In this document: positions 211 to 17,619 of the stretch, piece by piece
Numbering within the stretch: position 1 is the first letter of the stretch
How the letters are laid out: each line of letters begins with the position of its first letter
Assembly (NCBI GenBank): GCA_021789735.1
Contig: JAJYJB010000052.1
Location: forward strand, 1 to 18,604
Origin: Nitrospirota bacterium
GTDB lineage: Bacteria > Nitrospirota > Thermodesulfovibrionia > Thermodesulfovibrionales > JdFR-88
Length of the DNA: 18,604 bases
Reading direction: 5' to 3'
Position numbers and translations under genes: made by a program
Notes under the pieces: model-generated
The model's input: the letters and a program-made list of their open reading frames with translations, nothing else
What the model was told of the DNA's origin: nothing
Databases searched by the model: none

Positions 211-1620
211 ATGGCTGAAGAGAAAAAACCAAGGAAATTGAACCCCAGGCGGACCCCGGTGCGGGAGCAGGACCCGGCCCTCCGCAGGCGCAACTTCGAG
301 GAAGTGAGTTTCGGATACGGCCCGGAGGAGGCGGCGCTTGAGGCGTCCAGGTGTCTTGGATGCAGGAACAAGCCTTGCGTGGAAGGCTGCCCTGTGAGCG
401 TGCCCATACCGGAGTTCATAGCGGCGATGGCGGCTGGCGATTTCCAGGAGGCCTACAGGATAATCAGGAGCGCAAATGTGCTCCCGGCGGTCTGCGGGAG
501 GGTTTGCCCCCAGGAAAACCAGTGTGAGGGGTCATGCACCCTGGGCAAAAAACATGAGCCCGTGGCGATAGGCAGGCTGGAGAGGTTTTGCGCGGACTGG
601 CAGATGAAGAACGGGGCCAGGGCGGTGCCTGAGCTGGCCGGGCCAACCGGGATGAAGGTGGCGGTGGTGGGCAGTGGCCCGTCCGGGATAACATGCGCCT
701 ATGACCTCGCTCGCCGTGGCCACAAGGTCACGATGTTCGAGGCGCTGCACGAGCCCGGCGGAGTGCTTTTCTACGGCATACCGGAGTTCCGCCTTCCAAA
801 AAAGATAGTGACCGCCGAGATAGACACGCTCAGGCAGATGGGCGTGCAGATAATGACCAACGCGGTGGCCGGAAAGATCATCACCCTTGAGGAGATCATG
901 GGCCGGTTCGATGCCTGCTTCATAGGCGTCGGCGCGGGGCTTCCCAGGTTCATGGGCATACCCGGAGAGGACCTGAACGGGGTCTATTCGGCAAACGAAT
1001 TTTTGACGCGCACGAACCTGATGAGGGGCTACATGTTCCCCGAGTACGATACCCCTATAAAGACGGGAAAGCGCGTTGCGGTAATAGGCGGCGGCAACGT
1101 GGCCATGGATTCGGCAAGGACGGCGATGAGGCTTGGAGCGGAGGAGGTCACGCTGGTCTACCGGCGCTCCGAGGCGGAGCTGCCCGCCCGCGCCGAGGAG
1201 GTGCACCACGGCAAGGAAGAGGGCCTGCGCTTCGAGATGTGCACCCTGCCCACGAAGATAATGGGCGAAGACGGGTGGGTAAAGGCCATCGAGTGCGTGC
1301 GCATGGAGTTGTGCGAGATGGACCAGTCCGGCCGCAGGCGGCCCAACCCCATGGCCGGCTCCGAATTCGAGGTCCCGGTGGATACCGTCATCATGGCCAT
1401 CGGCACAGGGGCAAACCCGCTTCTGACAGGCACCGCCTCCGGACTTGCCTTGAATAGGGGGTATATCCAGGCCGGCCCCGAAACCGGCAAGACCAGCATT
1501 CCTGGCGTTTACGCCGGAGGGGACATCGTCACCGGCGCGGCCACCGTCATCTCCGCAATGGGCGCGGGAAGAAAAGCCGCCAGGGCCATACACGAATACC
1601 TTTCCTCCCGGAAGCGCTAA
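211..1620 (+). CDS. nfnB: NfnB, NADPH-binding large subunit of electron-bifurcating transhydrogenase (glutamate synthase small-subunit-like)
   Basis: 469 residues, the usual size for this family. The N-terminal part has two four-cysteine groups for [4Fe-4S] clusters: Cys48, 51, 56, 60 and Cys95, 99, 105, 109. An FAD-binding GxGxxG follows at about 153-158 (VVGSGPSG), and a second dinucleotide fold for NADP(H) at about 291-296 (VIGGGNVAMD). The C-terminal GGDIVTGAATV block is typical of the FAD domain. With NfnA the family couples NADH and reduced ferredoxin to NADPH in the cytoplasm by flavin-based electron bifurcation or confurcation. GltD, the glutamate synthase small subunit, has the same fold. 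The adjacent NfnA end and the absence of a glutamate synthase large subunit argue for Nfn. No strong ribosome binding site is visible before ATG 211; the upstream sequence is a T-rich run. Confidence 0.85.
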   Translation: MAEEKKPRKLNPRRTPVREQDPALRRRNFEEVSFGYGPEEAALEASRCLGCRNKPCVEGCPVSVPIPEFIAAMAAGDFQEAYRIIRSANVLPAVCGRVCPQENQCEGSCTLGKKHEPVAIGRLERFCADWQMKNGARAVPELAGPTGMKVAVVGSGPSGITCAYDLARRGHKVTMFEALHEPGGVLFYGIPEFRLPKKIVTAEIDTLRQMGVQIMTNAVAGKIITLEEIMGRFDACFIGVGAGLPRFMGIPGEDLNGVYSANEFLTRTNLMRGYMFPEYDTPIKTGKRVAVIGGGNVAMDSARTAMRLGAEEVTLVYRRSEAELPARAEEVHHGKEEGLRFEMCTLPTKIMGEDGWVKAIECVRMELCEMDQSGRRRPNPMAGSEFEVPVDTVIMAIGTGANPLLTGTASGLALNRGYIQAGPETGKTSIPGVYAGGDIVTGAATVISAMGAGRKAARAIHEYLSSRKR

Positions 1621-1673
1621 GTGCTCCTTTTCAATTTTTGATTTAGTTTAATTTAATTAAAAAGCGTGTCCTT

Positions 1674-2261
1674 ATGTCTCAAAAAGAAGCAGAAGTAAAG
1701 AAGAGTAAAAAAACCGTAAAGTATGTCCTGCTGCTGTTTGTTCTTCTTTTTGTCCTGCCCTGCCGGACTTTCGCTAAAAACCATGAGCCGCGCATCGATA
1801 AGTCATGGCTTGAAAGAAGGATACATGTGCTCATCAATATCGAAAGACGGAGGGCCGGATTGAGGCCGCTTGCGCTGAACAGGAAACTGTCCGCCATTGC
1901 CAGGCGGCATAGCCGGGACATGGCGGACAGGGATTATTTCTCCCACATGACCCCGGGCGGCCGGAGCCCTCTGGACAGGTACAGGGAGAGTGGTTTTGCA
2001 TGCCGGGTGCGGGAAGGCGGCCGCATATACCTGGGGGCGGAAAACATCTTCCAGAACGACCTTTACTCATCCATCGAGTACATTGACGGCAGGGCCTATT
2101 ACAATTGGAACAGCATGGAGGAGATAGCTCGCTCCACGGTGGAGGGGTGGATGGAGAGCCCCGGCCACAGAAGAAACATCCTCACACGCGCCTTCAGGTC
2201 TGAGGGCATAGGGGTGGCCATAAGAAACGGAAAGGTCTATATCACCCAGGACTTTTGCTGA
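1674..2261 (+). CDS. Secreted CAP/SCP-domain protein
   Basis: 195 residues. The N-terminus is lysine-rich, then a hydrophobic stretch (about residues 17-30, YVLLLFVLLFVLPC) forms a signal peptide; the cysteine at its end could suit lipoprotein processing, but the lipobox is poor. The rest is a CAP (cysteine-rich secretory/antigen 5/PR-1) domain: LINIERRRAGLRPL, then a His in the RRHSRDMADRDYFSH block, GAENIF and GHRRNIL, which are the family's conserved His/Glu cavity residues. Bacterial CAP proteins are exported; their biochemical role is mostly unknown. The gene stands alone, 53 bp after nfnB. No Shine-Dalgarno sequence precedes the ATG, so the start is chosen because it gives a complete signal peptide. 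The protein ends in Cys followed by a TGA stop. Confidence 0.8.
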   Translation: MSQKEAEVKKSKKTVKYVLLLFVLLFVLPCRTFAKNHEPRIDKSWLERRIHVLINIERRRAGLRPLALNRKLSAIARRHSRDMADRDYFSHMTPGGRSPLDRYRESGFACRVREGGRIYLGAENIFQNDLYSSIEYIDGRAYYNWNSMEEIARSTVEGWMESPGHRRNILTRAFRSEGIGVAIRNGKVYITQDFC

Positions 2262-2287
2262 GCATTTTGGGTCTCTTTTCCGCGCCG

Positions 2288-2308
2288 GGCCTTTTTATTA
2301 AAAAGGCC
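2288..2308 (+). terminator. Hairpin after the CAP gene, possible weak intrinsic terminator
   Basis: A perfect 9-bp inverted repeat (GGCCTTTTT at 2288-2296, AAAAAGGCC at 2300-2308) with a 3-nt loop lies 27 bp after the CAP stop. Two more outer pairs form if one G is bulged. The T tract sits inside the stem rather than directly after it, so termination efficiency is uncertain. The hairpin also overlaps the spacer of the promoter proposed at 2317-2322. Confidence 0.4.
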
Positions 2309-2316
2309 GGTTAGTC

Positions 2317-2322
2317 TATAAT
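2317..2322 (+). promoter_or_regulatory. Consensus -10 box just before atpZ, likely leaderless transcript
   Basis: TATAAT matches the sigma-70 -10 consensus exactly and ends 10 bp before the ATG at 2333. Transcription would start near 2329-2330, leaving about 3-4 nt of leader. No Shine-Dalgarno sequence lies before that ATG, which agrees with leaderless initiation. The -35 region 17 bp upstream (TTTATT) is poor. Confidence 0.4.
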
Positions 2323-2332
2323 TTTTCTATCG

Positions 2333-2620
2333 ATGCCAAAAGCGGAAAAACAGCAAGACCAAAAACCCGTCTGGAAGCAGATCATGGACGCCAGCCAGGT
2401 GGGCGTCAACCTGGTGGTGGCCACCTTGATCGGGGGTGTGATAGGCTATTTCATAGACAGGCATTTTCATACCATGCCATGGTTCACGCTTCTCTTTCTT
2501 TTCGCCGGCATGACCGCCGGGTTCAGGGAGGTTTTAAGATACACAAGGCGCAAGGATGAGGAAGAGGAAAAAGAAAGGGAGAAAAAGAAAAAAGAAGGAA
2601 ATGGAAAAAAGGATATTTAA
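2333..2620 (+). CDS. atpZ: AtpZ/AtpI-family small membrane protein
   Basis: 95 residues. After a short charged N-terminus the protein has two hydrophobic helices (about 24-45 and 49-66) with the pattern GVNLVVATLIGGVIGYFID, which is typical of the putative F0F1-ATPase subunit AtpZ/I family. The tail from about residue 72 is extremely charged (runs of Lys and Glu). Family members sit in front of ATP synthase operons and are thought to aid c-ring assembly or Mg/Ca supply. It overlaps the next gene by 20 bp, so the two are probably co-translated. No ATP synthase subunit follows in this window. Confidence 0.7.
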   Translation: MPKAEKQQDQKPVWKQIMDASQVGVNLVVATLIGGVIGYFIDRHFHTMPWFTLLFLFAGMTAGFREVLRYTRRKDEEEEKEREKKKKEGNGKKDI

Positions 2621-2954
2621 GATAGCCGGGACGGCCGTGCTTGTCCTGACGGCCGCCTCGGCGTTCTTCCTGCCAAAAAAAATACCGGCCGGCATACTGG
2701 CCGGGGGCGTGCTGTCGCTTGCCAATTTCAGGGCCCTGGCATGGGGGGTGACCGGATTGCTGGGGACCAGGAAGGCCACCGGCAAGATGATATTTTTCAG
2801 CGGGCTCCGGTTTGCGATAATAGTGGCGCTGCTGATAGGCCTTTTGAAGCTCGGGCTTGTGGACCTGCTTGGGGTGATCGTGGGCATGACGGCCGTTTTC
2901 TCCGTCATCATCGCGGCCGGGGCCAGGGAGCTGCTCAGGAACATCTCCGAGTAA
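2601..2954 (+). CDS. atpI: ATP synthase subunit I (AtpI-like) membrane protein
   Basis: 117 residues from ATG 2601, with AAGGAA just before it. The frame is open further upstream (to 2556), but that would add only an Arg/Lys-rich stretch overlapping the charged tail of the previous gene, so 2601 is preferred. The protein has four hydrophobic segments (about 9-23, 29-48, 60-80 and 86-107), the layout of the subunit I family. Pairing with the AtpZ-like gene supports the call. In many genomes atpB follows; here the next gene is pgi. The alternative is an unrelated four-helix membrane protein. Confidence 0.6.
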   Translation: MEKRIFKIAGTAVLVLTAASAFFLPKKIPAGILAGGVLSLANFRALAWGVTGLLGTRKATGKMIFFSGLRFAIIVALLIGLLKLGLVDLLGVIVGMTAVFSVIIAAGARELLRNISE

Positions 2955-2972
2955 AAATTAGAAAATCAGGCT

Positions 2973-3001
2973 GAGACAGCCGGGCCGGAAGATGATATAA
3001 T
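2973..3001 (+). promoter_or_regulatory. Predicted extended -10 promoter for pgi
   Basis: A -35-like GAGACA (2973-2978, four of six consensus bases) is followed by a 17-bp spacer and a perfect TATAAT (2996-3001). TGA directly before the -10 box supplies an extended -10 TGn element. The predicted start near 3008 leaves about 113 nt of leader before pgi. Confidence 0.45.
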
Positions 3002-3120
3002 GACCTCAAAAATGGACTTGTCTTCCGCTGGCAGGTCCGATACCCGTAAAAGCCTTTTGGGGGCAGAGAATAAAAAAAACTGTCTTGACAATATAGATGC
3101 GGTAGGGAAGGAGCCCGCTC

Positions 3121-4461
3121 ATGCTGGGTCTTAACTATTCCTTTATGATGGCCGAGACCATCGGCCAGAAAGGCATTACCAGCCGCAAACTGGAGAGCTT
3201 CCGGGTAAGGGCGCTTGAGGCGCTTGAGGAAGTAAAACGGAAGCGCCTACCGGGCCTTGCCTTCACGGAGCTGCCGTGGCAGGACGTCTCCCCTGTGAAG
3301 GAAGCCGCCAAGAGGCTGAAGGACCTGGACCATTTTATGCTCCTGGGCATAGGCGGCTCGGCCCTTGGGCCAAAGTGCATACTGGAGGCCTTAAGCCCTT
3401 TTCATAACCTGAGGGCGGACAAGGGCCCCAAGGTGTTTATCTATGAGAACGTAGACCCCTCCACGCTCCGCTCCATCATTGACAGTCTGGACGTAAGAAA
3501 GACCGGCGTGAATGTCATAAGCAAATCAGGCGGCACCTCGGAGACCATGGCCTCCTTCATGATCCTCTATGAGATGATGGAAAAGGCCCTGGGCAGCGAG
3601 GCCCGAAACAGATTTGTCCTTACCACCGACCCCGAAAAGGGGGACCTCCGCAAGCTTGCCCGGGAGGGAATGGGGTCCCTTCCCATTCTTCCGGGAGTGG
3701 GCGGAAGGTATTCCGTCCTTTCCCCCGTGGGGCTTCTGACGGCGGAGGTTATCGGAGTGGACTCCGAAGAGCTCCTTGCCGGCGCAAAGGAGGCGCATGC
3801 AAAGTGCATGGGCGGCGAGTTCTGGGACAATCCTGCCATAGTGGCTGCGACGCTTTTTTATGTGATGCAGAGGGATGAGGGCAGGAAAATAGATGTCCTG
3901 ATACCGTATGCCGACCGGCTCAAGTCCTTCTCGGAGTGGTTTTGCCAGCTGTGGTCCGAAAGCCTGGGCAAACAGGGCAGGGGCCTCACGCCGTACCCCT
4001 CTGTAGGGACCACGGACCAGCACTCGCAGGTGCAGCTCTGGATGGAGGGGCCGGAAGACAAGATAATCACATTTCTCAGGGTGGAGGATTATGGGGCGGA
4101 CTTCACTATACCGGATGTGTTCGGCCAATACGAGGGCATGTCCTTTCTCCGTGGACAGAGCCTTCAAGGGCTTATAAAGGCGGAAGAGGAAGCTACCGAG
4201 CTTGCCCTGGCAAAGGCAGGAAGGCCCAATATGTCGATAACCATCCCAGGGATAGACGCCTATCACCTTGGGCAGCTCTTCTACTTCTTTGAGGTCGTGA
4301 CGGTCCTCACCGGGCATTTCCTGGATGTTAACCCGTTTGACCAGCCGTCCGTGGAAGAGGGGAAAAAGCTCACTTTCGGACTCATGGGTAAAAAGGGTTT
4401 TGAGGACAAGAAAAGAGAGGTCGTCCAGGCCAGGGACAAGAAGAGCCAGTTCGTGGCCTAG
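3121..4461 (+). CDS. pgi: Glucose-6-phosphate isomerase
   Basis: 446 residues, the size of the shorter bacterial and archaeal-type phosphoglucose isomerases. It interconverts glucose 6-phosphate and fructose 6-phosphate in the cytoplasm. Recognisable family blocks are the two SIS sugar-phosphate domains: GIGGSALGP near residue 79, SKSGGTSET near 135-143, GGRYSVLSPVGL near 195, then DQHSQVQLWMEGP near 300 and NPFDQPSVEEGK near the C-terminus. AAGGAG at 3108-3113 lies 7 bp before ATG 3121 and fixes the start. It sits between the AtpZ/AtpI pair and the hydrogenase operon with its own predicted promoter, so it is probably a single-gene unit. No clear terminator follows; 4462-4560 is simply very AT-rich. 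Confidence 0.93.
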   Translation: MLGLNYSFMMAETIGQKGITSRKLESFRVRALEALEEVKRKRLPGLAFTELPWQDVSPVKEAAKRLKDLDHFMLLGIGGSALGPKCILEALSPFHNLRADKGPKVFIYENVDPSTLRSIIDSLDVRKTGVNVISKSGGTSETMASFMILYEMMEKALGSEARNRFVLTTDPEKGDLRKLAREGMGSLPILPGVGGRYSVLSPVGLLTAEVIGVDSEELLAGAKEAHAKCMGGEFWDNPAIVAATLFYVMQRDEGRKIDVLIPYADRLKSFSEWFCQLWSESLGKQGRGLTPYPSVGTTDQHSQVQLWMEGPEDKIITFLRVEDYGADFTIPDVFGQYEGMSFLRGQSLQGLIKAEEEATELALAKAGRPNMSITIPGIDAYHLGQLFYFFEVVTVLTGHFLDVNPFDQPSVEEGKKLTFGLMGKKGFEDKKREVVQARDKKSQFVA

Positions 4462-4623
4462 TGCTTTTTAGTTTCGCAACTTGTTGATTTATTTTGATTT
4501 ATTATTAAAAATTTATATTGAAATAAAAAATTTTTTGGGTTAATATCGCGTAAAAAAAGGAGGGCCGCTTAACTGGAAAGCCGTAAACCTGCATAAAAGG
4601 GAAGAAAGGGGGTCTTTATTTTC

Positions 4624-5706
4624 ATGGGGGAAGCAAGTGGAAGCATCTATGATTCCCTGAGGAAAAAAGGGGTATCGAGAAGAGACTTCATGAAGTTCTG
4701 CTCTCTGATGGCGGCGACCCTGGCGCTGCCGGCAGGGGGCGCCGCAAAGATCGCCGAGGCGCTCGAAAAGGCCCAAAAACCAACGCTCGTATGGCTTGAA
4801 TACCAGGACTGCTGCGGCAACACCGAATCCTTCCTGAGGGCAAGCGACCCTACGGTGGCCCAGATAGTTCTGGACCTCCTGTCTGTAAACTATCACGAAA
4901 CAATCATGGCCCCTGCGGGCAAGCAGGCGGAAAAATCCTTGGCCGATACCGTCAAGAACCAGAAAGGCAAATACCTGGTGGTGGTAGAGGGGGCGATACC
5001 TCTTAAGGACGGCGGCGTTTACTGCACGGTCGGGGGCAGGGCGGCCATCGACATAGCCAGGGAGGTCTGCGGCAATGCCCTGGCTACCATCGCGATGGGG
5101 GCCTGCGCATGGGACGGAGGCATTCCCGCGGCGGCGCCCAACCCCACTGGCGCGGTCGGTGTGAAGGATGCGGTCAAAGGCATAACGCTTATAAATCTCC
5201 CTGGCTGTCCGGCAAACGTGGTGAACCTGACCGGCACCGTCGTGCATTACCTGACCTTCGGCAGCCTGCCGCTTACCGATTCCATGGGCAGGCCGCTTTT
5301 TGCCTACAGCCGCAGGATCCACGACGACTGCGAGCGGAGGGCCCACTACGACGCCGGCCGGTATGTGCAGGCTTGGGGAGACTATGGGCATGAGCATGGA
5401 TGGTGCCTTTATCAGATGGGCTGCAAGGGCCCGGAAACCTTCAAGAACTGTCCGGCCCAGAGGTGGAACCAGGGCACGAGCTGGCCTGTCGAGTCCGGGC
5501 ACGGCTGCATTGGCTGCGCTGCGCCCCATTTCTGGGACACCATGACGCCGTTTTACAAGAGGCTTGAGAATGTGCCCGGCTTTGGGGTGGAGGCCACCGC
5601 GGACAAGGTCGGGGCCGGCCTTGCCGCCGCCACCGCCGCCGGCCTTATAGTCCACAGGATCGCAAGGGCCGCCAAAAAGAAATCATCCGATGAGGAGGGT
5701 AAATAA
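4624..5706 (+). CDS. hyaA: [NiFe] hydrogenase small subunit, Tat-exported, with variant proximal-cluster motif
   Basis: 360 residues. It carries the FeS clusters that take electrons from the NiFe site of the large subunit. The N-terminus has a twin-arginine signal (SRRDFMKF, Arg19-Arg20, then a hydrophobic stretch), so the folded dimer is exported by Tat. A hydrophobic segment near the C-terminus (about 325-345) followed by lysines anchors it in the membrane. Cluster ligands are visible: HDDC and the later cysteines for the distal cluster, NCP and CIGC for the medial cluster, and GACAWDGG plus GCPANVV for two proximal-cluster cysteines. The oddity is the first proximal motif. Where group 1 enzymes normally have C-x-x-C, this reads D-C-C-G-N-T-E-S (Cys63, Cys64, Gly65, Asn66), so the second usual ligand is Asn and an extra Cys sits beside the first. 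From memory, oxygen-insensitive group 1h enzymes also have a C-x-G-N-T motif and a 3Cys-1Asp cluster. First gene of the operon, 5 bp before the large subunit. Confidence 0.93.
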   Translation: MGEASGSIYDSLRKKGVSRRDFMKFCSLMAATLALPAGGAAKIAEALEKAQKPTLVWLEYQDCCGNTESFLRASDPTVAQIVLDLLSVNYHETIMAPAGKQAEKSLADTVKNQKGKYLVVVEGAIPLKDGGVYCTVGGRAAIDIAREVCGNALATIAMGACAWDGGIPAAAPNPTGAVGVKDAVKGITLINLPGCPANVVNLTGTVVHYLTFGSLPLTDSMGRPLFAYSRRIHDDCERRAHYDAGRYVQAWGDYGHEHGWCLYQMGCKGPETFKNCPAQRWNQGTSWPVESGHGCIGCAAPHFWDTMTPFYKRLENVPGFGVEATADKVGAGLAAATAAGLIVHRIARAAKKKSSDEEGK

Positions 5707-5711
5707 ATTAC

Positions 5712-7421
5712 ATGCCTAAGATCGCGATTGATCCAATAACCAGGATCGAAGGACATCTGAGAATCGAGGCCCAGGTGGACGGGGGCCAGGTAAAGGACGC
5801 GTGGGCCTCCAGCACTATGTTCAGGGGCATAGAGCTCATCCTTAAGAACAGGGACCCGAGGGACGCCTGGGCTTTTGCCCAGAGGATATGAGGGGTCTGA
5901 ACGACGGTTCACGCCACCAGCTCCGTGAGAGCTGTAGAAAACGCGCTTCAGATCACGATCCCGGACAACGCAAGACTCATAAGGAACCTTATTACCGGCA
6001 TACAGTATGTGCAGGACCACACCATTCATTTTTATCACCTGCACGCCCTGGACTGGGTTGATATCGTCAGCGCCCTGAAGGCGGACCCGGGCAAGACTGC
6101 GGCCCTTGCCCAGTCCATTTCGGACTGGCACAACTCCAGCAAGACATATTTCGCTGGCGTACAGGACAAGCTGAAGGCGTTCGTCGCCGGGGGGCAGCTT
6201 GGCCTCTTCGCCAACGGCTATTGGGGGCATCCTGCCTACAAACTGCCGCCCGAGGCCAACCTCATGGCGGTGGCGCATTACCTTGAGGCCCTGGACTGGC
6301 AGAAAAACATCATACGCATCCACGCGATACTTGGCAGCAAGAACCCGCACGCGCAAACTTATCTTGTGGGCGGGATGGCAACCGCCATGAACCCGAACGA
6401 CGAATCCACCCTTAACGCAAACAGCATCGCGCACATAATGCAGATGGCGCAGACCGCAAAGGAGTTCGTGGAGAAGGTCTACGTGCCTGACCTCCTGGCC
6501 ATAGCGTCCTTCTACAAAGACTGGGCCGGCTACGGGGCGGGTGTGGGCAACTACCTGGCATACGGCGAGTTCCCCAAGGACAATATATCGAACACGGACA
6601 ACCTCTTTTTGCCCAGGGGCCGGATACTTAACAAGGACCTCTCAAAGGTCTATCCGGTGGACCAGCAGAAGGTGGCCGAATACATCGCCCACTCCTGGTA
6701 CACGTATCCGGAGGGCAACAACGCCTCCTTGCACCCGTATGACGGCGTGACGGACTATAAGTACACCGGGCCCAAGCCGCCTTTCGAGTTCCTCAATACG
6801 GACAAGAAATACAGTTGGGTGAAGGCGCCCCGCTACGAGGACAAACCCATGGAGGTCGGTCCGCTGGCAAGGATGCTTGTGGCCTACGCCTCCGGGCACA
6901 AAAGGGTGAAGGAGGTTGTGGACGCGTCCCTGAAGAAGCTGGGAGTCGGGCCGGCGGCGCTCTTTTCCACGCTTGGGCGGACCGCCGCGCGCGGGATAGA
7001 GACTCTGGTCGTGGCCGAAGCGATACAGGGGTGGATAGGCCAGCTTGCCGATAATATGAAGAAGGGTGACCTGCGCATCCACGACAACTCGAAATGGGAC
7101 CCCTCCACATGGCCTTCGGAGGCAAAAGGGTATGGTTTCCATGAGGCCCCGAGAGGCGCCCTATGCCACTGGGTGCGGATAAAGGACGGGAAGATAGCCA
7201 ACTACCAGTGCGTGGTCCCAAGCACATGGAACGCCTCGCCCAGGGACGCCAAGGGACAAAGGGGCCCGTATGAGACGGCCCTGCTGGGCACCCCGGTTGC
7301 AAAGCCTGAGGAGCCCCTTGAGATATTGAGGACGGTGCATTCGTTTGACCCCTGTCTTGCCTGCGCCGTTCACATAACGGACGTAAACAGGAAAGAGCTC
7401 CTCAAGGTGAAGGTGTCTTGA
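5712..7421 (+). CDS. hyaB: [NiFe] hydrogenase large subunit with two in-frame TGA (selenocysteine) codons in the L1 motif
   Basis: Reading from ATG 5712 (GAGGAGGG 12 bp upstream) and decoding TGA at 5889-5891 and 5898-5900 gives a full-length protein of 569 residues; the shorter open frame downstream of 5900 is only its remainder. The N-terminus is canonical (IDPITRIEGHLRIE). At the L1 site, where the family has R-I-C-G-V-C-T-T-V-H, the gene encodes R-I-U-G-V-U-T-T-V-H, with Sec60 and Sec63. Both are ligands of the Ni-Fe centre. The L2 motif is F-D-P-C-L-A-C-A-V-H, with Cys548 (TGT) and Cys551 (TGC). After His554 there is a 15-residue tail of the kind removed by the maturation protease encoded two genes downstream. 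TGA at 7419-7421 is also the normal stop of this gene. With the small subunit it oxidises H2 in the periplasm. A damaged gene is unlikely, because the frame is intact and the TGAs hit exactly the two ligand codons. Confidence 0.93.
5918..5934 (+). promoter_or_regulatory. Putative bacterial SECIS element
   Basis: A perfect 6-bp stem (CAGCTC at 5918-5923 with GAGCTG at 5929-5934) closes a CGTGA loop. The loop starts 23 nt after the second TGA and 32 nt after the first. As I recall, bacterial SECIS elements have the apical loop about 16-37 nt downstream of the UGA and a G within its first two bases. Both conditions hold here for both codons. A second hairpin (TGAAC-GACG-GTTCA, 5898-5911) starts at the second TGA itself and may contribute to decoding the first. 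Confidence 0.65.
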
Positions 7422-7440
7422 GGAAGGGAGGACGCCAAAA

Positions 7441-8103
7441 ATGACCACTGAGCGGAAGAAGACTTACATCTGGGAATTCCCGGTCCGGTTGACGCACTGG
7501 GTCAATTTCTTTGCCATTATCTTCCTTTCGGTAACGGGAATATACATTGGCGGGCCTTTTCTCCATCCCTCCTCCAGTCAGAGTTTCACAATGGGATGGA
7601 TGAGGTTCATCCACCTGGTTGCTGGCTATACGCTGCTGATGATGATAATCATCAGGGTCTATTGGGCATTCGCGGGCAACAGGTACGCCAACTGGAGGGT
7701 CTTTTTGCCTCTCACCGGAAGGCAAAGGCACGACTTGGGTGACGCGACGAAATATTACCTGTTCGTGAGCAAAAAGCCCCCTTACGCGGCCGGGCACACG
7801 ATGTGCGCGGGCATCGCGTATTTTGTGCTGTTTCTCATGTTCCTGTTCCAGATATTCTCCGGGTTCGCGCTTTTTTCGTACAACAGCCCGGGGCTTGTCC
7901 ATCAGGTCCTTGGCGGGTGGCTGACTTCTCTTATGAACATCCAGGCGATCAGGTTCTGGCACCATATGGTAATGTATTTCATATGGGTTATAGCCCTTAT
8001 TCATGTGTATCTGGCGCTCTGGCTGGACTCCGTTGAGGGCAACGGGCTTATGGGTTCCATCTTCGGAGGCTACAAGTTCATAACAGGCAAGGAATGGGAA
8101 TAG
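7441..8103 (+). CDS. hyaC: Hydrogenase cytochrome b subunit
   Basis: 220 residues with four predicted membrane helices, typical of the HyaC/cytochrome b561 family that anchors group 1 hydrogenases and passes their electrons to the quinone pool. Histidines suited to bind two b hemes lie in or near the helices: LTHWVNF (helix 1), FIHLVAGY (helix 2), FWHHMVMYF (helix 4 side) and ALIHVYLAL (C-terminal helix). The ending GSIFGGYKFI is a family hallmark. It begins 19 bp after the large subunit, with a GGAAGGGAGG stretch before ATG 7441. Its end overlaps the next gene by 10 bp. Confidence 0.92.
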   Translation: MTTERKKTYIWEFPVRLTHWVNFFAIIFLSVTGIYIGGPFLHPSSSQSFTMGWMRFIHLVAGYTLLMMIIIRVYWAFAGNRYANWRVFLPLTGRQRHDLGDATKYYLFVSKKPPYAAGHTMCAGIAYFVLFLMFLFQIFSGFALFSYNSPGLVHQVLGGWLTSLMNIQAIRFWHHMVMYFIWVIALIHVYLALWLDSVEGNGLMGSIFGGYKFITGKEWE

Positions 8104-8672
8104 GGGGACGCGGCGCTCCGCGAGACGGGGCGCAAAAAAACTTGGCCCCAAAAAATGACGGACCCGCAGGCCAGGGCGTTGGCTTTCGGCAAGGGGGCAC
8201 AACCGTTCTTGGCATAGGCAATGTCCTGATGGGTGATGAAGGGGCAGGGGTCCGAGTGCTTGAAACCCTCCGGGAACAGTACGAGTTCCCGGAGGGCGTC
8301 TGCCTTCTGGACGGCGGGACCATGGGGCTTGACCTCCTTTATTACCTGGAGGGCACGGACAGGCTGATTATGGTAGATGCGGTCAGCATGGACGCGCCGC
8401 CGGGGACGGTCAGGATATTTGACGGCCCGCAGATACCTTCGCTGCTGGCGGGGAAATTTTCAGTTCACGAGATAGGTCTGCAGGACCTTTTTTTCGCGAT
8501 GGACATAACGGGAAGAAGGCCTTCCGAATCCTGCCTGGCGGGCATAGAGCCAAAAGTTGTGGAACTGGGGCTTGAGCTTTCCCCGGAGATGAAAAACGCG
8601 CTGCCGGTCCTTGCCGATGCCGTAGTGGAAAGGTTAGGCAGCTGGGGGATAGAAGTGAGGAGAAAACAGTAG
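8094..8672 (+). CDS. hyaD: Hydrogenase maturation endopeptidase (HyaD/HybD family)
   Basis: 192 residues. The enzyme senses nickel in the large-subunit precursor and cuts off its C-terminal peptide after the L2 histidine. Family motifs are GIGNVLMGDEGAGV (residues 40-53, with the acidic Ni ligand in DE), MVDAV (second acidic ligand) and SVHEIG (the His ligand). Homologues begin only a few residues before the GIGN motif. Here ATG 8094 gives about 37 extra residues of low-complexity Gly/Pro/Lys sequence, and AAGGA lies directly against the ATG. No better ATG or GTG exists in frame; TTG at 8142 is possible but lacks a Shine-Dalgarno sequence. The start is therefore uncertain, the identity is not. 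Confidence 0.88.
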   Translation: MGIGGRGAPRDGAQKNLAPKNDGPAGQGVGFRQGGTTVLGIGNVLMGDEGAGVRVLETLREQYEFPEGVCLLDGGTMGLDLLYYLEGTDRLIMVDAVSMDAPPGTVRIFDGPQIPSLLAGKFSVHEIGLQDLFFAMDITGRRPSESCLAGIEPKVVELGLELSPEMKNALPVLADAVVERLGSWGIEVRRKQ

Positions 8673-8908
8673 TGTGCCTTGCCATACCGTCAAAGATAAT
8701 CAGTAAAAACGGGTTTGAGGCGACGGTAGACCTCTACGGGGCTAGAAGGAAGGTGAACCTTATGCTCCTTCCCGAGGACGCCTCGGTCGGGGAGTACGTG
8801 CTTGTGCACGCCGGGTTTGCCATCCAGAAGATAGACGACTCCGCTGCCAGGGATGCCATCGGGCTCATCGACGAAATACTTAAGACCCTCGAACAGGAGG
8901 GCGCGTAG
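8672..8908 (+). CDS. hypC: HypC/HybG family hydrogenase assembly chaperone
   Basis: 78 residues starting with GTG at 8672, which overlaps the stop of the protease gene by 1 bp; GAGGAG lies 9 bp upstream. The N-terminus M-C-L-A-I-P is diagnostic: after Met removal the exposed Cys2 binds the Fe(CN)2CO precursor with HypD and delivers it to the large subunit. The protein has the small beta-barrel pattern of the family and a charged C-terminal helix. A dedicated chaperone inside the structural operon, rather than with the other hyp genes, is common for group 1 enzymes. A selenocysteine-ligated apo large subunit would be its client here. Confidence 0.93.
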   Translation: MCLAIPSKIISKNGFEATVDLYGARRKVNLMLLPEDASVGEYVLVHAGFAIQKIDDSAARDAIGLIDEILKTLEQEGA

Positions 8909-11864: not shown

Positions 11865-12629
11865 ATGATAGAAGTCTCCGGACTGCACAAGTCCTTCGGC
11901 GCCCATCACGTGCTGCGCGGTGTGGACCTTGTAGTGGAGGGCGGCCAGAGCATGGTTGTCATCGGCGGCAGCGGCTCTGGAAAAAGCGTGCTTATTAAGC
12001 ATATAATAGGTCTTCTTAAGCCGGACCAGGGCTCCGTTACCATAGACGGAGAGGACATAACAAGGCTTGACGCCAGGCATTTGTACGAGGTCCGTAAGAA
12101 GTTCGGTATGCTTTTTCAGGGCGCTGCTTTGTTTGATTCCATGACGGTCTGGGAAAATGTGAGTTTTGCACTGATGAGAAGCGGCATGAAATCCAAGGAG
12201 GCCAAGCAAGTGGCTGTCGAAAAGCTGCGCCTGGTGGGACTCCCGGGCGTTGAGGACCTTATGCCCGCGGAGCTTTCGGGCGGCATGCGAAAGCGCGTGG
12301 GCCTTGCCAGGGCCATAGCCCATCAGCCGCAGATATTGCTTTATGACGAGCCGACCACGGGGATCGACCCCATCATGGCCGATGCCATAAACGACCTTAT
12401 CATAAAGATGCGCGAGGAACTGCACGTGACAAGCGTCACCATAACCCACGACATGCAAAGCGCTTACAAGATAGCCGACCGCATAGCCTTTCTCTACGAG
12501 GGCAATATCATAGAGACCGGCACGCCGGAAGAGATAAAGAACACCTCAAACCCTTACACCAGACAGTTCGTCACGGGCAGCGCGCAGGGGCCCATCAAGC
12601 TGGAAGGGGTTGAGTTTAAAGGGGCCTGA
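11865..12629 (+). CDS. mlaF: MlaF, ATP-binding subunit of lipid transport system
   Basis: 254 residues with all ABC ATPase motifs: Walker A GGSGSGKS (34-41), Q-loop Gln85, signature LSGGM (137-141), Walker B ILLYDE (157-162) and switch His in VTITHDM. The pattern DEPTTGIDPIMADAIN is typical of the Mla/Ttg2A group. It would power lipid movement through MlaE and MlaD at the inner membrane. GGAGG lies 7 bp before ATG 11865. Its TGA stop shares one base with the ATG of mlaD, so the two are translationally coupled. Confidence 0.94.
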   Translation: MIEVSGLHKSFGAHHVLRGVDLVVEGGQSMVVIGGSGSGKSVLIKHIIGLLKPDQGSVTIDGEDITRLDARHLYEVRKKFGMLFQGAALFDSMTVWENVSFALMRSGMKSKEAKQVAVEKLRLVGLPGVEDLMPAELSGGMRKRVGLARAIAHQPQILLYDEPTTGIDPIMADAINDLIIKMREELHVTSVTITHDMQSAYKIADRIAFLYEGNIIETGTPEEIKNTSNPYTRQFVTGSAQGPIKLEGVEFKGA

Positions 12630-14104
12630 TGCCAAAAATCACCACTGAAGTCAAAGTAGGCATATTCGCCCTGATCGTCATCGCGATACTCTCCCTCATG
12701 ACCTTCTGGGTGGGCGGGCTCGCCTGGCTTAAAAAGCCCGGCTACAAACTCTATGTTTATTTCAACAATGTAAGCGGGCTTGAAACGAAGGGCAAGATCA
12801 GGGTGGCGGGGGTGGAGGCCGGCTACATAGAGAAAATATCCCTTGTGGACGGCAGGGCGAAGCTGACCCTCCAGGTCAACAAGGGGGTCGTCCTTTATTC
12901 GGACGCGGAGGCCGGGATAAGCTCAATGGGCCTGCTTGGCGAAAAATACCTGGAGCTGAAACCTGGCCACACGCTGCCAGTCCTTGGACCTGGGCAGACC
13001 ATAACCCAGTCGATCCCGAGTGTGGACATGGACGAGCTCTTCAGGAAGCTTTCCTCTCTTTCGGACAGTCTTACAAAGATAACCGGCAAGATAAACGAAG
13101 TGCTGTCGCCGCAGCAGATAGACGCCCTGAAGACGGCCATCAACAACGTAAAGCTCATCACCCAAAACGTTAACGACGCGGTAGTGCAGGACAACGCCAA
13201 GGTTAAAAACACGCTGGACAACGTCGATTCGCTGATAAGCAGCCTGAACGGGACGGTCAAGAAGAACAGCAGGAACGTAACCGAGCTTCTTGCAAACCTG
13301 AAGGACCTTTCACGCACTCTCGATGAGGAGGCTCCGGGCGTTCTGGCCAACATAAGGGACACAAGCCGGGCGATCAAGAAACTTGTGGTCAAAAACCAGC
13401 CCGGGATAGAGTCCATCGTAAACAGCACCAGCCAGATAACCACCAATCTGCGCGAGGGCAAGGGCACGCTTGGCAAGCTCCTTACGGACAAGTCGCTTTA
13501 CAATAACTTGAACACCAGCGTCAAGGACCTGAAAAATACCTTTGGCGCCATAAACCGCTTCAAGATATACCTGGACTTCCAGGGCAATTACCTCACAAGG
13601 CATTCAAACGGGGAAGGCCAGTTCCTGCTTACCTTGCAGCCCAGCCCGGACAAATACTACATACTGGGCGTGGTCTCAAACCCCATAGCGAGGATAGACA
13701 AGATACAGGTCTACGATCCGGCGACCAACGAGCTTGTGACGACCTCGGAAAATGTCCATTCGAACGTGGAATTCCTGGGCCAGTTCGCGCGCAGGTTCAA
13801 AAATACGGCGCTCCGCATAGGCGTCACCGACAACACATTCGGCATAGGCGCGGACCAGTTCTTTTTGAACGACAGGCTGAAGCTCTCACTGGATGCCTGG
13901 GATTTTGGCGCCAAGGAGGCCTTTGCCACTCGCGCCCATCTTAGGGCGGGCGCCCAGTATTTCCTCTTCAAGCATATCTATCTTAATGCGGGCTGGGACA
14001 ACCCTCTTAATTCCTACTGGAGCGGCCCGTACGTTGGAGCCGGCTTAAGGTTCGAGGACGAGGACCTCAAATACCTCTTCGGGGTGGCATCGATCAGGCC
14101 CTGA
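12629..14104 (+). CDS. mlaD: MlaD-type MCE protein with long helical segment and C-terminal beta-strand (barrel-like) domain
   Basis: 491 residues, against roughly 150-180 for classical MlaD. Residues 8-30 are a membrane helix (VGIFALIVIAILSLMTFWVG). The MCE domain spans about 37-115 (VYFNNVSGLETKGKIRVAGV to GEKYLELKPG). Residues about 130-305 are almost all helical and rich in Asn, Leu and Lys, like the coiled tunnel or bridge helices of long MCE proteins. From about residue 310 to the end the pattern changes to alternating beta strands with many aromatic residues and tight turns (YLDFQGNYL, FLLTLQPSPDKYYILG, ALRIGVTDNTFGIGADQFF, YLNAGWDN, YVGAGLRF), which looks like an outer-membrane barrel. 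Such MlaD-barrel fusions are described in Veillonella as transenvelope bridges for phospholipids. It ends the mla operon; no mlaC or mlaB follows. Confidence 0.9.
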   Translation: MPKITTEVKVGIFALIVIAILSLMTFWVGGLAWLKKPGYKLYVYFNNVSGLETKGKIRVAGVEAGYIEKISLVDGRAKLTLQVNKGVVLYSDAEAGISSMGLLGEKYLELKPGHTLPVLGPGQTITQSIPSVDMDELFRKLSSLSDSLTKITGKINEVLSPQQIDALKTAINNVKLITQNVNDAVVQDNAKVKNTLDNVDSLISSLNGTVKKNSRNVTELLANLKDLSRTLDEEAPGVLANIRDTSRAIKKLVVKNQPGIESIVNSTSQITTNLREGKGTLGKLLTDKSLYNNLNTSVKDLKNTFGAINRFKIYLDFQGNYLTRHSNGEGQFLLTLQPSPDKYYILGVVSNPIARIDKIQVYDPATNELVTTSENVHSNVEFLGQFARRFKNTALRIGVTDNTFGIGADQFFLNDRLKLSLDAWDFGAKEAFATRAHLRAGAQYFLFKHIYLNAGWDNPLNSYWSGPYVGAGLRFEDEDLKYLFGVASIRP

Positions 14105-14751: not shown

Positions 14752-16158
14752 TCAGTAAAGGCTGGGCAGAAAACCGGTAGTGTCATCAAAGTCCAGCACA
14801 TGGCATTTATTGCAAAGCTGCCTCTGGTAAGGGCCAAACAGCTTTCCGATGTCTCTTCCGTAGTATGGGGCGTTTGTTATGTATGCGCCGTAAGGGCTGT
14901 GTTCGATAGAGCCGTCATAGACAGGGCCCGGGATGGAGTTTACAAGGAATGTAGCCCTGGTGTCCCATCTGGTTGACCACTCGAAGGCCGAGGCGTGCGC
15001 CCTGTGGCAGGTCAGACATGAGGGAAACCCCGGATTGGCAGGTGTGGGGCCGCTTGTATTTTGGCCATTAAGCTGGGAGGGGTCTGATATTATCCTTTCA
15101 AAAGGCACCAGAGACAGCCATGCGCCGGCTGCGTTCGTGATTTTTTTTGTGAGGTCCCCGCTGGCAATGTATGCATTATATAAAAGGGGGACGCCCTCCG
15201 CCGATGTCCCCGTAACGGGGTGATGGGCAAACTGGCCCCACGGGTGGCAGTTTTCACACCACTGGGAAATGTCATCGTAAGGCGGATACATATGGGTTCC
15301 GTAATCAACATGATGCTTGTTGTCTGCTGTTTCAGCAAAATTATAGGCCGGCGAACTGTCCGCAGCCGCCATTGGAGCACCGTAGGTGAAAGTAAAAGGG
15401 GCAAGGCTGTTGCCTTTGTAATGGGTGTCTCCAAGGAGCCTGTAGTTGCCGCAAATGGTTCCTTTAGGCACGTTCGAACAGCCATAAGAGCCGGACTTGA
15501 TTACAGGCCTCTGTCCGTTTCTGGTCCCTCCGTTTACCTGTCCGTGGGGGTCGTGGCAGCTCGTGCACGTGAGGGCGGCGGACGGATAGATGCCACCGGG
15601 CGCGTTTTTGAAACTGGTATCCGCGAGCATGTTGAAGTCCTTTGCGACCACGCTATGGCCGTGGTCCTGGCCTTTTATAACGTATGAGGCTCCGTTTTCC
15701 ATCGAAGTGTATGTGACGGTCAGGCTAAGCCAGTAAAAATCCCCGCCGGGGTTGTTATTGACGTTTCCGTCAACGCTCAGCACACGGTAGGGCACCCCTT
15801 TTTGCGCATGGCAGTTAAGGCATGTGGAGCTGTCGTCCGATCCCCTGAGCAGAAAAGGGCTTGGCGTGTTGCCGGCAGCCCCTTGCCGGTTCAGAGGGCT
15901 GCCATCCCAGGAGCTGGCCCCCGGATTCAGGGAGCTCTGGTCCGGGGAGAATTTGGGCGTGCTCCCCGCGGACACCGAATTGTGCATCGTATGACAGCCT
16001 TCGCAAAACCCGGCGCCGCCGTTGTGGAAGGCATGAGCGCGGTCGGGCCCGGCGGCCAGGGCAAGCGCTGCAAGGGCCAGGAAGACGGCGGCCAGCAGAT
16101 ACTTTTTCCCCATGCCCCCTTCCGGTTTTTCCTGGCAACGGCCCTTGACCGCGCTCAT
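14752..16158 (-). CDS. OmcS/OmcT-family hexaheme c-type cytochrome (second of tandem pair)
   Basis: 468 residues from the ATG at 16158, with AAGGAGGG 10 nt upstream. ATG at 16113, beginning M-G-K-K-Y-L-L, is a plausible shorter start with AGGGGG just before it. A signal peptide (hydrophobic stretch LLAAVFLALAALALAAG) ends before AFHNGGAGFCEGCHTMHN. Six CxxCH heme motifs are present: CEGCH, CLNCH, CTSCH, CENCH, CLTCH, CNKCH. The spacing and flanking blocks (GGDFYW, HSVVAKDF, CHDPHG, LSLVPFE, CHRAHASAF, YYGRDIGKLFGPYQR) follow the Geobacter nanowire cytochrome OmcS. A paralogue of the upstream gene, 119 bp away, it has a longer segment between hemes 1 and 2 and a C-terminal extension after the last heme (LDFDDTTGFLPSLY). 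Expected location is outside the cell. Confidence 0.88.
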   Translation of the reverse strand: MSAVKGRCQEKPEGGMGKKYLLAAVFLALAALALAAGPDRAHAFHNGGAGFCEGCHTMHNSVSAGSTPKFSPDQSSLNPGASSWDGSPLNRQGAAGNTPSPFLLRGSDDSSTCLNCHAQKGVPYRVLSVDGNVNNNPGGDFYWLSLTVTYTSMENGASYVIKGQDHGHSVVAKDFNMLADTSFKNAPGGIYPSAALTCTSCHDPHGQVNGGTRNGQRPVIKSGSYGCSNVPKGTICGNYRLLGDTHYKGNSLAPFTFTYGAPMAAADSSPAYNFAETADNKHHVDYGTHMYPPYDDISQWCENCHPWGQFAHHPVTGTSAEGVPLLYNAYIASGDLTKKITNAAGAWLSLVPFERIISDPSQLNGQNTSGPTPANPGFPSCLTCHRAHASAFEWSTRWDTRATFLVNSIPGPVYDGSIEHSPYGAYITNAPYYGRDIGKLFGPYQRQLCNKCHVLDFDDTTGFLPSLY

Positions 16159-16277: not shown

Positions 16278-17582
16278 TTAATCCTGCGCATGGCACTTGT
16301 TGCACAGCGATCTCTGGTCTGGTCCGAATACGGATTTAATGTCCCTCCCGTAATAAGGGGCGTTGGCCACGTAGGGTTTGAGCAGGCGCTGGCCAATGTT
16401 GTAAATGGGGCCCGGGGAGGAGTCGTTAAGAAAAGTCGCATATGTGTCCCATCTTGTGTCGAAGTCGAAAGCCGAGGCGTGCGCCCTGTGGCAGGTCAGG
16501 CACATCACATTTTCCTTCCCCGTGGATGGGCCGTCCGTTCTTTCCCCGTTTAGCATGGTGACATTGGTCACTCCCCGCTCAAATGGGACCAGGGAAAGCC
16601 ACGAATCCGCTTCGGAGCCTGTAAAAACACCTGTGCTTATATATGAGTTGTAATTGGCCGCAACTCTGGTCAAAAGCGCCTGTTCGCCTGCAGGGTGTCT
16701 GTGAGCGGATTGGCCGGATGTATTGCCGCTGTTTAAGAAATTGCAGTGGCAGTTTGCGCACCATTCGGACATGCCCGAGCCGTAGTCCACGTGGTGCCTG
16801 TTGTCCGCCGTCTCGGAAAAATGATATCTGGGGTCCGAGTCGGCCACTGCAATCGGGACCCCATGGTCCCATGGGGGCGCTCCCGTGCGGACGTTGTTCC
16901 AGTCCGTGCGGTTTAAGAGCCTGTATTTTCCAACGCTGTAGCTATTAGTAGGCGTTGCGCCATACGAACCGGACTGGCTTATGGGAGGCAGAGAGACGCC
17001 GCCGTTGCCGCCATAGGTGTTGCTTGGCAGCCTGCCGTGCGGGTCGTGGCAGTTTATGCAGGAAAAATCGGCGCTGGTGACGGTAAAACCCGGAGAGTTC
17101 GTGTCGCAACTGCTGTTTCCCGGAGGCTCCTGCATAAAAGGACTGTTCGTGAGCCCGTAGTCGATCGCTACTATTGCGTGGCCTTTGTTAAAACGATTGT
17201 ACGGCGCGATGGTTTTTGTGACGTCCGGATTGACTATCGTAACGGAGCCGCTTTCGGTCAGCCAGAAAAAATCCCCTCCCGGGGAAAATACGCTGCCGTC
17301 CGTGCTTAGCACCTGGTATGGCATGCCTTTCACGGCATGACAGTTCAGGCAGGTAGAGCTTGGGTCCGAGCCCCTGATATACCCGGGCCCTCCCCTGGGC
17401 TCGCCAGGCCCTCCGGGATGCATGACATGGCAACCTTCGCAATAGCCCACGCCGCCTGAATGAAACAGCACGCTTCCGGATGCGTTGATGCCTGTAAGGA
17501 GTATGAACACAGCCAGGACGAAAAACATCGCCGCAAACCGCGCTGCCCTCTCAAGCACTCTAAGGTTGCATTTGCTTGACAT
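16278..17582 (-). CDS. omcS: OmcS-like hexaheme c-type cytochrome (first of tandem pair)
   Basis: 434 residues from ATG at 17582-17580, which has GGAG 5 nt upstream. The frame is open to a TTG at 17609, but that codon lies inside the promoter site. A signal peptide (RFAAMFFVLAVFILLTGI) precedes VLFHSGGVGYCEGCH. Six CxxCH motifs bind six c hemes: CEGCH, CLNCH, CINCH, CANCH, CLTCH, CNKCH. Length and blocks match Geobacter OmcS as I remember it: FHSGGV-x2-CEGCH, PGGDFFW, KGHAIVAIDY, CHDPHG, GMSEWCANCH, HPAGEQ, SWLSLVPFERG, CHRAHASAFD and an ending in APYYGRD-FGPDQR-LCNKCHAQD. OmcS polymerises into extracellular heme filaments that carry electrons to minerals or partners. Heme attachment in the periplasm needs Ccm/Ccs factors encoded elsewhere. 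Nanowire assembly here is inference from homology. Confidence 0.9.
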   Translation of the reverse strand: MSSKCNLRVLERAARFAAMFFVLAVFILLTGINASGSVLFHSGGVGYCEGCHVMHPGGPGEPRGGPGYIRGSDPSSTCLNCHAVKGMPYQVLSTDGSVFSPGGDFFWLTESGSVTIVNPDVTKTIAPYNRFNKGHAIVAIDYGLTNSPFMQEPPGNSSCDTNSPGFTVTSADFSCINCHDPHGRLPSNTYGGNGGVSLPPISQSGSYGATPTNSYSVGKYRLLNRTDWNNVRTGAPPWDHGVPIAVADSDPRYHFSETADNRHHVDYGSGMSEWCANCHCNFLNSGNTSGQSAHRHPAGEQALLTRVAANYNSYISTGVFTGSEADSWLSLVPFERGVTNVTMLNGERTDGPSTGKENVMCLTCHRAHASAFDFDTRWDTYATFLNDSSPGPIYNIGQRLLKPYVANAPYYGRDIKSVFGPDQRSLCNKCHAQD

Positions 17583-17604
17583 CTTTTCTCCGGCGACTGT
17601 GGTA

Positions 17605-17619
17605 AGCAATTAGCATGCC
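17605..17619 (-). promoter_or_regulatory. Sigma-54-like promoter of the cytochrome operon
   Basis: Minus-strand GGCATGCTAATTGCT: the -24 GG is at 17619-17618 and the -12 GC at 17607-17606, with 10 bases between. The predicted transcript start is near 17594, leaving a short leader of about 12 nt that still contains the GGAG ribosome site. RpoN control implies an enhancer-binding activator, not encoded in this window. Confidence 0.6.

Follow-up and report, generated by a model that had tools for sequence, protein, structure and literature searches.

The window, a stretch of 18,604 nucleotides of one Nitrospirota contig, carries a hydrogenase operon in which the genes for a small subunit, a large subunit, a cytochrome b, a protease and HypC all run in one direction (Table 1). 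The small subunit has a Tat signal and adjoins the large subunit, as in group 1 hydrogenases. Its proximal-cluster motif is DCCGNTES (region 4792-4860), with Asn in place of the second Cys of CxGC. The window also has two adjoining cytochrome genes that look alike (14752-16158 and 16278-17609, reverse strand), each encoding six CxxCH motifs.

Table 1. Features of the hydrogenase operon and of the region around its in-frame TGA codons.
Feature	Position	Strand	Remarks
Hydrogenase small subunit (HyaA-like, Tat signal)	4624..5706	+	TIGR00391 441 bits and TIGR01409 21 bits, both above cut-off
[NiFe] hydrogenase large subunit (HyaB-like)	5712..7421	+	Read through two TGA codons; 569 aa
TGA codon 60, first L1 ligand	5889..5891	+	Aligns with E. 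coli Hyd-2 C61; predicted Sec
Possible second hairpin, from between the TGAs to past TGA 63	5892..5915	+	Weak candidate; forms in the majority of 13 sequences, disrupted in L011
TGA codon 63, second L1 ligand	5898..5900	+	Aligns with E. coli Hyd-2 C64; predicted Sec
Codons 64-78, lowest synonymous change in the gene	5901..5945	+	Predicted SECIS region
Candidate SECIS hairpin CAGCTC-CGTGA-GAGCTG	5918..5934	+	GU in loop; starts 17 nt past UGA 63
498-aa ORF from GTG, lacking L1	5925..7421	+	Database form of such genes
L2 ligands Cys548 (TGT, 7353) and Cys551 (TGC, 7362)	7353..7364	+	Motif DPCLAC
b-type cytochrome membrane subunit	7441..8103	+	TIGR02125 above cut-off
Hydrogenase maturation protease (HyaD/HybD-like)	8094..8672	+	TIGR00072 above cut-off
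HypC-like maturation chaperone	8672..8908	+	TIGR00074 above cut-off

As the original prediction held, the large-subunit frame is open except for TGA at codons 60 and 63, with its terminal TGA at 7419-7421. Translation gives the L1 context AFAQRI-U-G-V-U-TTVHA, confirming that the flanks are canonical (R-I-U60-G-V-U63). Both ligand motifs of group 1 large subunits, RxCGxC in L1 and DPCxxC in L2, are present in the right register, U replacing C in L1. The correspondence with Hyd-2 C61 and C64 comes from the alignment of a relative, and the window protein begins in the same register against its PDB match. In [NiFe] hydrogenases the first Cys of each pair is the terminal Ni ligand and the second forms the Ni-Fe bridge. 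We take codon 60 to specify the terminal and codon 63 the bridging ligand. Like a [NiFeSe] hydrogenase, the gene has a predicted Sec codon at a Ni ligand, here TGA at both L1 ligand codons; at the first L2 Cys, the place of Sec in the described bacterial members, it has no Sec codon, L2 being TGT/TGC.

The best PDB match of the large subunit is 3myr_B (E 2e-222). NCBIfam hydrogenase large-subunit models span its full length with scores below their equivalog cut-offs (HyaB 644 against 1101; HybC 629 against 969), and by these scores it is a relative of E. coli HyaB/HybC and not an equivalog. The [NiFeSe] HysA model NF045518 gives 425.8 bits, short of its cut-off of 780. Since the glutamate of RIEGH and the arginine of APRG are both found, the remainder of the active site looks normal. 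The sequence APRGALCHW has an additional Cys after the conserved Arg; among 10 relatives compared, two have ALCHW, seven ALGHW and one FLGHW.

To determine how common the two TGAs are, the L1 codons of relatives were surveyed. An initial scan of genome contigs gave 19 loci, 12 with TGA-Gly-Val-TGA in L1 (11 Nitrospirae records and one Chloroflexi record, HyVt-544) and seven with CGVC or CGIC. Of 395 genomes from the phylum of G006 (the Nitrospirae genome containing L006), 155 have a match. L1 and L2 codons were read in 130 records, and dropping 10 same-genome duplicates left 120 distinct records, the window included; L019 was left out as too short, though it has Cys in L1. Tabulating these with TGA as U, the check proposed with the original prediction, gave 74 UGVU, 25 CGVU, 20 CGVC and one CGIC (21 with all-Cys L1), and no UGVC among the 120. 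Codon 63 is thus TGA in 99 of the 120 and codon 60 in 74. All 99 L1-TGA records have Cys codons at both L2 ligands, as seen in the window (TGT and TGC), and none has another in-frame stop from 20 codons before L1 through L2. The UGVU genes share their TGAs at identities as low as 52%, and the neighboring codons differ synonymously. The same two TGAs at the same codons in 74 of 120 records, with synonymous differences nearby and no other stop, lie far beyond chance. Codon-position diversity is coding-like on both sides of the UGAs, the third position being about 3.6-5.7 times as diverse as the first and second.

Another 81 loci, two of them from genomes already counted, added one UGVU (G596) and two CGVU genes (G355 and G415), the others having Cys. 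In the phylum of G011, the Chloroflexi record, 50 of 400 genomes have a match; 30 loci read there comprise two UGVU (G011 and G596) and 28 Cys forms, and of two more rows bearing a TGA one is CGVU (G415) and one Cys. The Chloroflexota UGVU genomes number two and perhaps reflect one event, as the stretch after L1 differs between them by 1 base in 75. The G415 gene (L277) encodes a CGVU hydrogenase of the window's type with 68% identity over 367 residues and ends at a contig edge. Only Cys was found in L1 in the phylum of G014 (match in 36 of 195 genomes; 20 loci and two with a TGA read) and in that of G018 (match in 23 of 269 genomes; 20 loci read). Carriers span Nitrospirota and Chloroflexota, and this is a widespread family and not a single gene. 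One record of the table, L017 (Actinomycetota bog_752, 42% identity to the window protein), has a TGA in L2 (DPUMGC), the classical [NiFeSe] place.

The L1-TGA genes fall into two hydrogenase types. One is the window's own, a group 1f-like, cytochrome-b-linked Hya type, with 73 UGVU and four CGVU records at 60% identity or more. The other, a clade with full support at about 50% identity, has 21 CGVU, one UGVU and two CGVC records; G355 is one more CGVU, at 48% identity. By gene order and a HybC-like large subunit this clade is of the Hyd-2/Hyb type (group 1c). The gene order is HybA-HybB-large subunit-HybD in L117, L127 and L123. In L117 HybA scores 365, above its cut-off of 263, while HybC, the best model, gives 879 against 969 and a HybB-type model 283 against 450, both below; the best PDB match is E. 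coli Hyd-2, 6en9. In L123 (G333) a Hyd-2-type CGVU operon is followed in tandem by a window-type UGVU operon (about 300-8800). Close Cys homologues of the window protein, among which the UGVU set branches, include an Anaerolineae protein (P0039, 72% identity) and a Geotalea protein (P0087, 70%), with L1 given as CGVC in the database. The link to group 1f comes only through P0039, which is named 'hydrogenase, group If'; for the other Cys relatives we infer the label.

On a tree of 165 proteins made by a quick method, including 45 database proteins with Cys unchecked on DNA, the four L1 states require 15 changes, against 70 on average after shuffling. Cys forms branch from within the UGVU forms, L078 and L079 being verified as Cys on DNA, which suggests that Sec was probably lost as well as gained and that double Sec is not indispensable. 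As CGVU exists in two hydrogenase types and UGVC was not seen, selenium probably took the bridging position before the terminal one (CGVC to CGVU to UGVU). The four window-type CGVU rows group, with support, together with nine UGVU rows, and the only Hyd-2-type UGVU is placed among CGVU rows. These groupings fit the order and do not prove its direction.

The original prediction also proposed a check for sel genes, which was run on the relatives. SelA (matches with E at most 1e-60) is encoded in 93 of 95 L1-TGA genomes compared with 81 of 300 others in the phylum sample, counts that ignore kinship; the 300 include G355, later read as a CGVU carrier, which has SelA. SelB is over its cut-off in 78 of 80 carriers and a tRNA-Sec was found in 70 of 80, with the anticodon TCA in all 30 loci examined. 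All 46 carriers searched for SelD have it, each with a match bearing one in-frame TGA, and in the 15 read this TGA falls at U in the UxxK site, a site given for SelD in the accessible text of a selenoproteome review (PMC13188914). It serves as a positive control that carrier cells read UGA as Sec. Among the first 12 UGVU genomes 12 have SelA, 11 SelB and eight a tRNA-Sec of at least 60 bits; SelB over the cut-off was lacking in G011, and a 60-bit tRNA-Sec match in four of the 12. At the thresholds used none of SelA, SelB and tRNA-Sec was found in G361 (UGVU) and neither SelA nor SelB in G232, two assemblies of which the completeness is not given. The expected machinery is therefore present in the great majority of relatives and incomplete in these two. 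In L001, the nearest relative of the window by sequence (96% of residues, 92% of bases), SelA, SelB and tRNA-Sec are found, together with a SelD that is split over contigs. Five genomes (G302, G171, G387, G333 and G213) have two tRNA-Sec matches each with E < 1e-11, which could reflect mixed bins or true duplicates.

A bacterial SECIS predicts silent constraint right after the UGAs, and this was found in both U-containing groups and is absent in the Cys homologues. In 13 close sequences codons 64-79 are silently conserved relative to the rest of the gene (Fisher p 2.6e-5). The lowest 12-column codon-entropy window of the 73 UGVU genes is codons 59-74 (0.47, median 0.90) and the lowest window of the 22 Hyd-2-type genes is codons 61-76 (0.41, median 0.84). 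In the 21 Cys genes the lowest window is 0.80 and lies elsewhere, with 166 usable columns versus 288 and 349. The loop of the candidate hairpin is 23 nt from TGA 63. The hairpin is perfectly paired in one of two registers in 63 of 73 sequences, and the loop GT is present in all 73. Of 77 window-type L1-TGA genes 75 carry the motif CTCNGTG[AC]G[AG]G, versus none of 21 Cys genes. A two-sided change in the candidate hairpin was seen among the 13 close sequences; across the 73 sequences fixed-register covariation did not clearly exceed the shuffled level, 369 of 500 shuffles reaching its score for one register and 31 of 500 for the other. For the downstream stretch the folding energy in the window's clade is unremarkable (mean z -0.23), compared with -2.23 in the Hyd-2-type clade and -0.67 in the Cys genes.

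We consider it very probable that both L1 UGAs encode Sec inserted by SelA, SelB, SelC and SelD, and that Ni is held by a terminal Se, a Se bridging to Fe, and two S. Conservation across two phyla, the Sec machinery of almost every carrier, the SECIS-like silent constraint and the finding of no other UGA-reading tRNA in the single-contig genome G033 all support the double L1 Sec with all-Cys L2 originally proposed; Sec insertion and the metal-site chemistry at L1 are predictions. One SECIS hairpin right past UGA 63 would serve both UGAs, which are 9 nt apart. The Ni site would have two Se from L1, one terminal and the other bridging to Fe, and two S from L2. The mature enzyme would be a membrane-bound respiratory uptake hydrogenase passing electrons to quinone through the cytochrome b.

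The two L1 seleniums may shield the Ni-Fe site from oxidation or hasten its re-activation afterwards. With modest confidence, and by analogy, we favor such a protective role, based on the group 1f oxygen-protecting label and on the proximal cluster of the UGVU partners. Asn or Asp replaces the second Cys of CxGC in 66 of 67 legible small-subunit partners of UGVU enzymes of the window's type, in four of four CGVU partners and in five of 11 Cys partners. The Asn/Asp of most UGVU partners is reminiscent of O2-insensitive actinobacterial enzymes. It is also possible that the double Sec is real and has a role other than with oxygen, tuning redox bias or proton/hydride chemistry in an anaerobic uptake enzyme, for example toward low H2, or aiding Ni insertion. 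According to the accessible text on E. coli Hyd-2, putting Sec in place of one ligand Cys changes both bias and reversibility (PMC11212049), consistent with this possibility. It is plausible, and we would bet slightly against it given the proximal cluster and the group If label of the close relative P0039, as the accessible HydDB text describes group 1f as oxygen-protecting with its role unresolved (PMC5037454). We lean toward the fuller reading in which a bridging selenolate occurs in two hydrogenase types and a Ni(Se2S2) site with both Se from L1, a mirror of the known [NiFeSe] site, in one large family, the bridging Se having come first and the seleniums working with the Asn/Asp proximal cluster against oxidation.

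Decoding of both UGAs has its own alternatives. Only one, likeliest the SECIS-proximal UGA 63, might be decoded well, with UGA 60 poorly read or read as another amino acid, giving a mixture of truncated, single-Sec and double-Sec products. Such a mixture would agree with the single obvious hairpin, placed past both UGAs, with the stable natural occurrence of CGVU (25 of 120 records) and with a downstream fold of ordinary stability in the window's clade. However, 74 records retain TGA at codon 60 though TGC and TGT are one step off, and codon 59, directly before it, is strongly constrained too (relative entropy 0.07), making efficient reading of UGA 63 alone improbable.

A still smaller chance attaches to the UGAs being read as Cys, by a suppressor tRNA-Cys or near-cognate misreading, in an ordinary Cys4 [NiFe] hydrogenase. 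No record read has anything but Cys or TGA at the L1 sites, and a tRNA-Cys with a UCA anticodon has been reported from some bacteria. We rejected such a tRNA based on G033, one genome in a single 2.37-Mb contig, in which the only UCA anticodon found belongs to tRNA-Sec and tRNA-Cys has only GCA (ARAGORN on 44 loci holding its 44 tRNA matches and its tRNA-Sec). The strong SelA enrichment in carriers and the SECIS-like constraint in TGA forms only also argue against Cys. Reassignment of UGA was rejected because TGA persists as a stop codon: it is the terminal stop in 22 of 74 UGVU and eight of 25 CGVU genes. In the window too, in agreement with the original prediction, TGA ends five of the 17 ORFs with a stop read (5712-7421, 1674-2261, 11865-12629, 12629-14104 and 14752-16158), the others ending in TAA or TAG.

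That the TGAs are true stops or errors, in a pseudogene, through misassembly or with a short peptide followed by a restart at GTG 5925, is barely credible in spite of the 498-aa restart form in databases (P0002, P0010, P0024, P0026 and P0074), as frameshift, pseudogene and assembly error are rejected by identical TGAs across many assemblies (74 of 120 distinct records, two of them on contigs of 2.4 and 3.2 Mb, G033 and G326), and the restart by coding-like conservation before the UGAs, as strong as in the remainder, by the lack of another in-frame stop and by its product being without both L1 nickel ligands.

The predicted double-Sec L1 differs from the arrangement in known systems. To our knowledge, [NiFeSe] hydrogenases have one Sec, in L2. 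In the HysA enzymes of Desulfovibrio and Desulfomicrobium this Sec is the terminal ligand. Like the window enzyme they belong to group 1 and have Sec as a Ni ligand at a UGA, whereas the window gene has two predicted Sec in L1, one of them bridging, and all-Cys L2. Single Sec variants of Hyd-1 were reportedly made by Evans (PNAS, 2021). The methanogen Fru/Vhu enzymes (VhuU) share Sec as a Ni ligand but are of group 3, with a UxxC motif and one Sec per large-subunit entry in the accessible review text (PMC13188914; the motif also in PMC9312934). In E. coli Hyd-2, single Cys-to-Sec changes at 61, 64, 546 or 549 all gave active enzyme at lower levels, as far as the accessible text goes (PMC11212049). 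Two of these positions, 61 and 64, correspond to the L1 sites of the window enzyme, and the natural CGVU clade is Hyd-2-type; the engineered enzymes were laboratory-made by UAG recoding at one site each, unlike the natural UGAs of the window, which occur together. The synthetic complex [NiFe('S2Se2')(CO)3] has two selenolates on Ni, one terminal and the other bridging, the arrangement predicted here, in a small molecule with thioether and carbonyl ligands described in the accessible text as a mimic of the terminal Sec in known enzymes (PMC4510704). Two Sec three residues apart are also found in UxxU selenoproteins (Prx-like, mercuric-reductase-like and FmdB-like), which are families other than hydrogenase in the accessible parts of PMC13188914 and PMC9312934.

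Those parts of the two selenoproteome reviews mention no UxxU or L1-Sec hydrogenase, and the accessible HydDB text names [NiFeSe] variants for 1a, 3a and 3c (PMC5037454). A UxxU or L1-Sec hydrogenase was likewise absent from the accessible text of PMC4730141, PMC13111528, PMC9961374, PMC9469722, PMC11291895 and PMC9499178, engineered single-Sec enzymes excepted. A literature search for a Ni-Fe site with two Se from L1, with subscription papers and preprints mostly outside it, gave no match, in line with the original statement that no such enzyme has been characterized.

Two Se ligands from L1, one bridging Ni and Fe, as predicted from these genes, would be new among [NiFeSe] hydrogenases. They bear on an open bioinorganic question, why hydrogenases use selenium and why it is known only at one L2 ligand. 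The natural C-C, C-U and U-U forms in close relatives are a ready series for separating the roles of bridging and terminal selenium and could be used to probe activity, recovery from O2 and Ni insertion. How two UGAs nine bases from each other are decoded with a single apparent SECIS is a further problem. In protein databases such genes are truncated, their five 498-aa forms beginning after L1 and looking like proteins without the L1 nickel ligands, and H2 metabolism in the bacteria that carry them is likely under-read.
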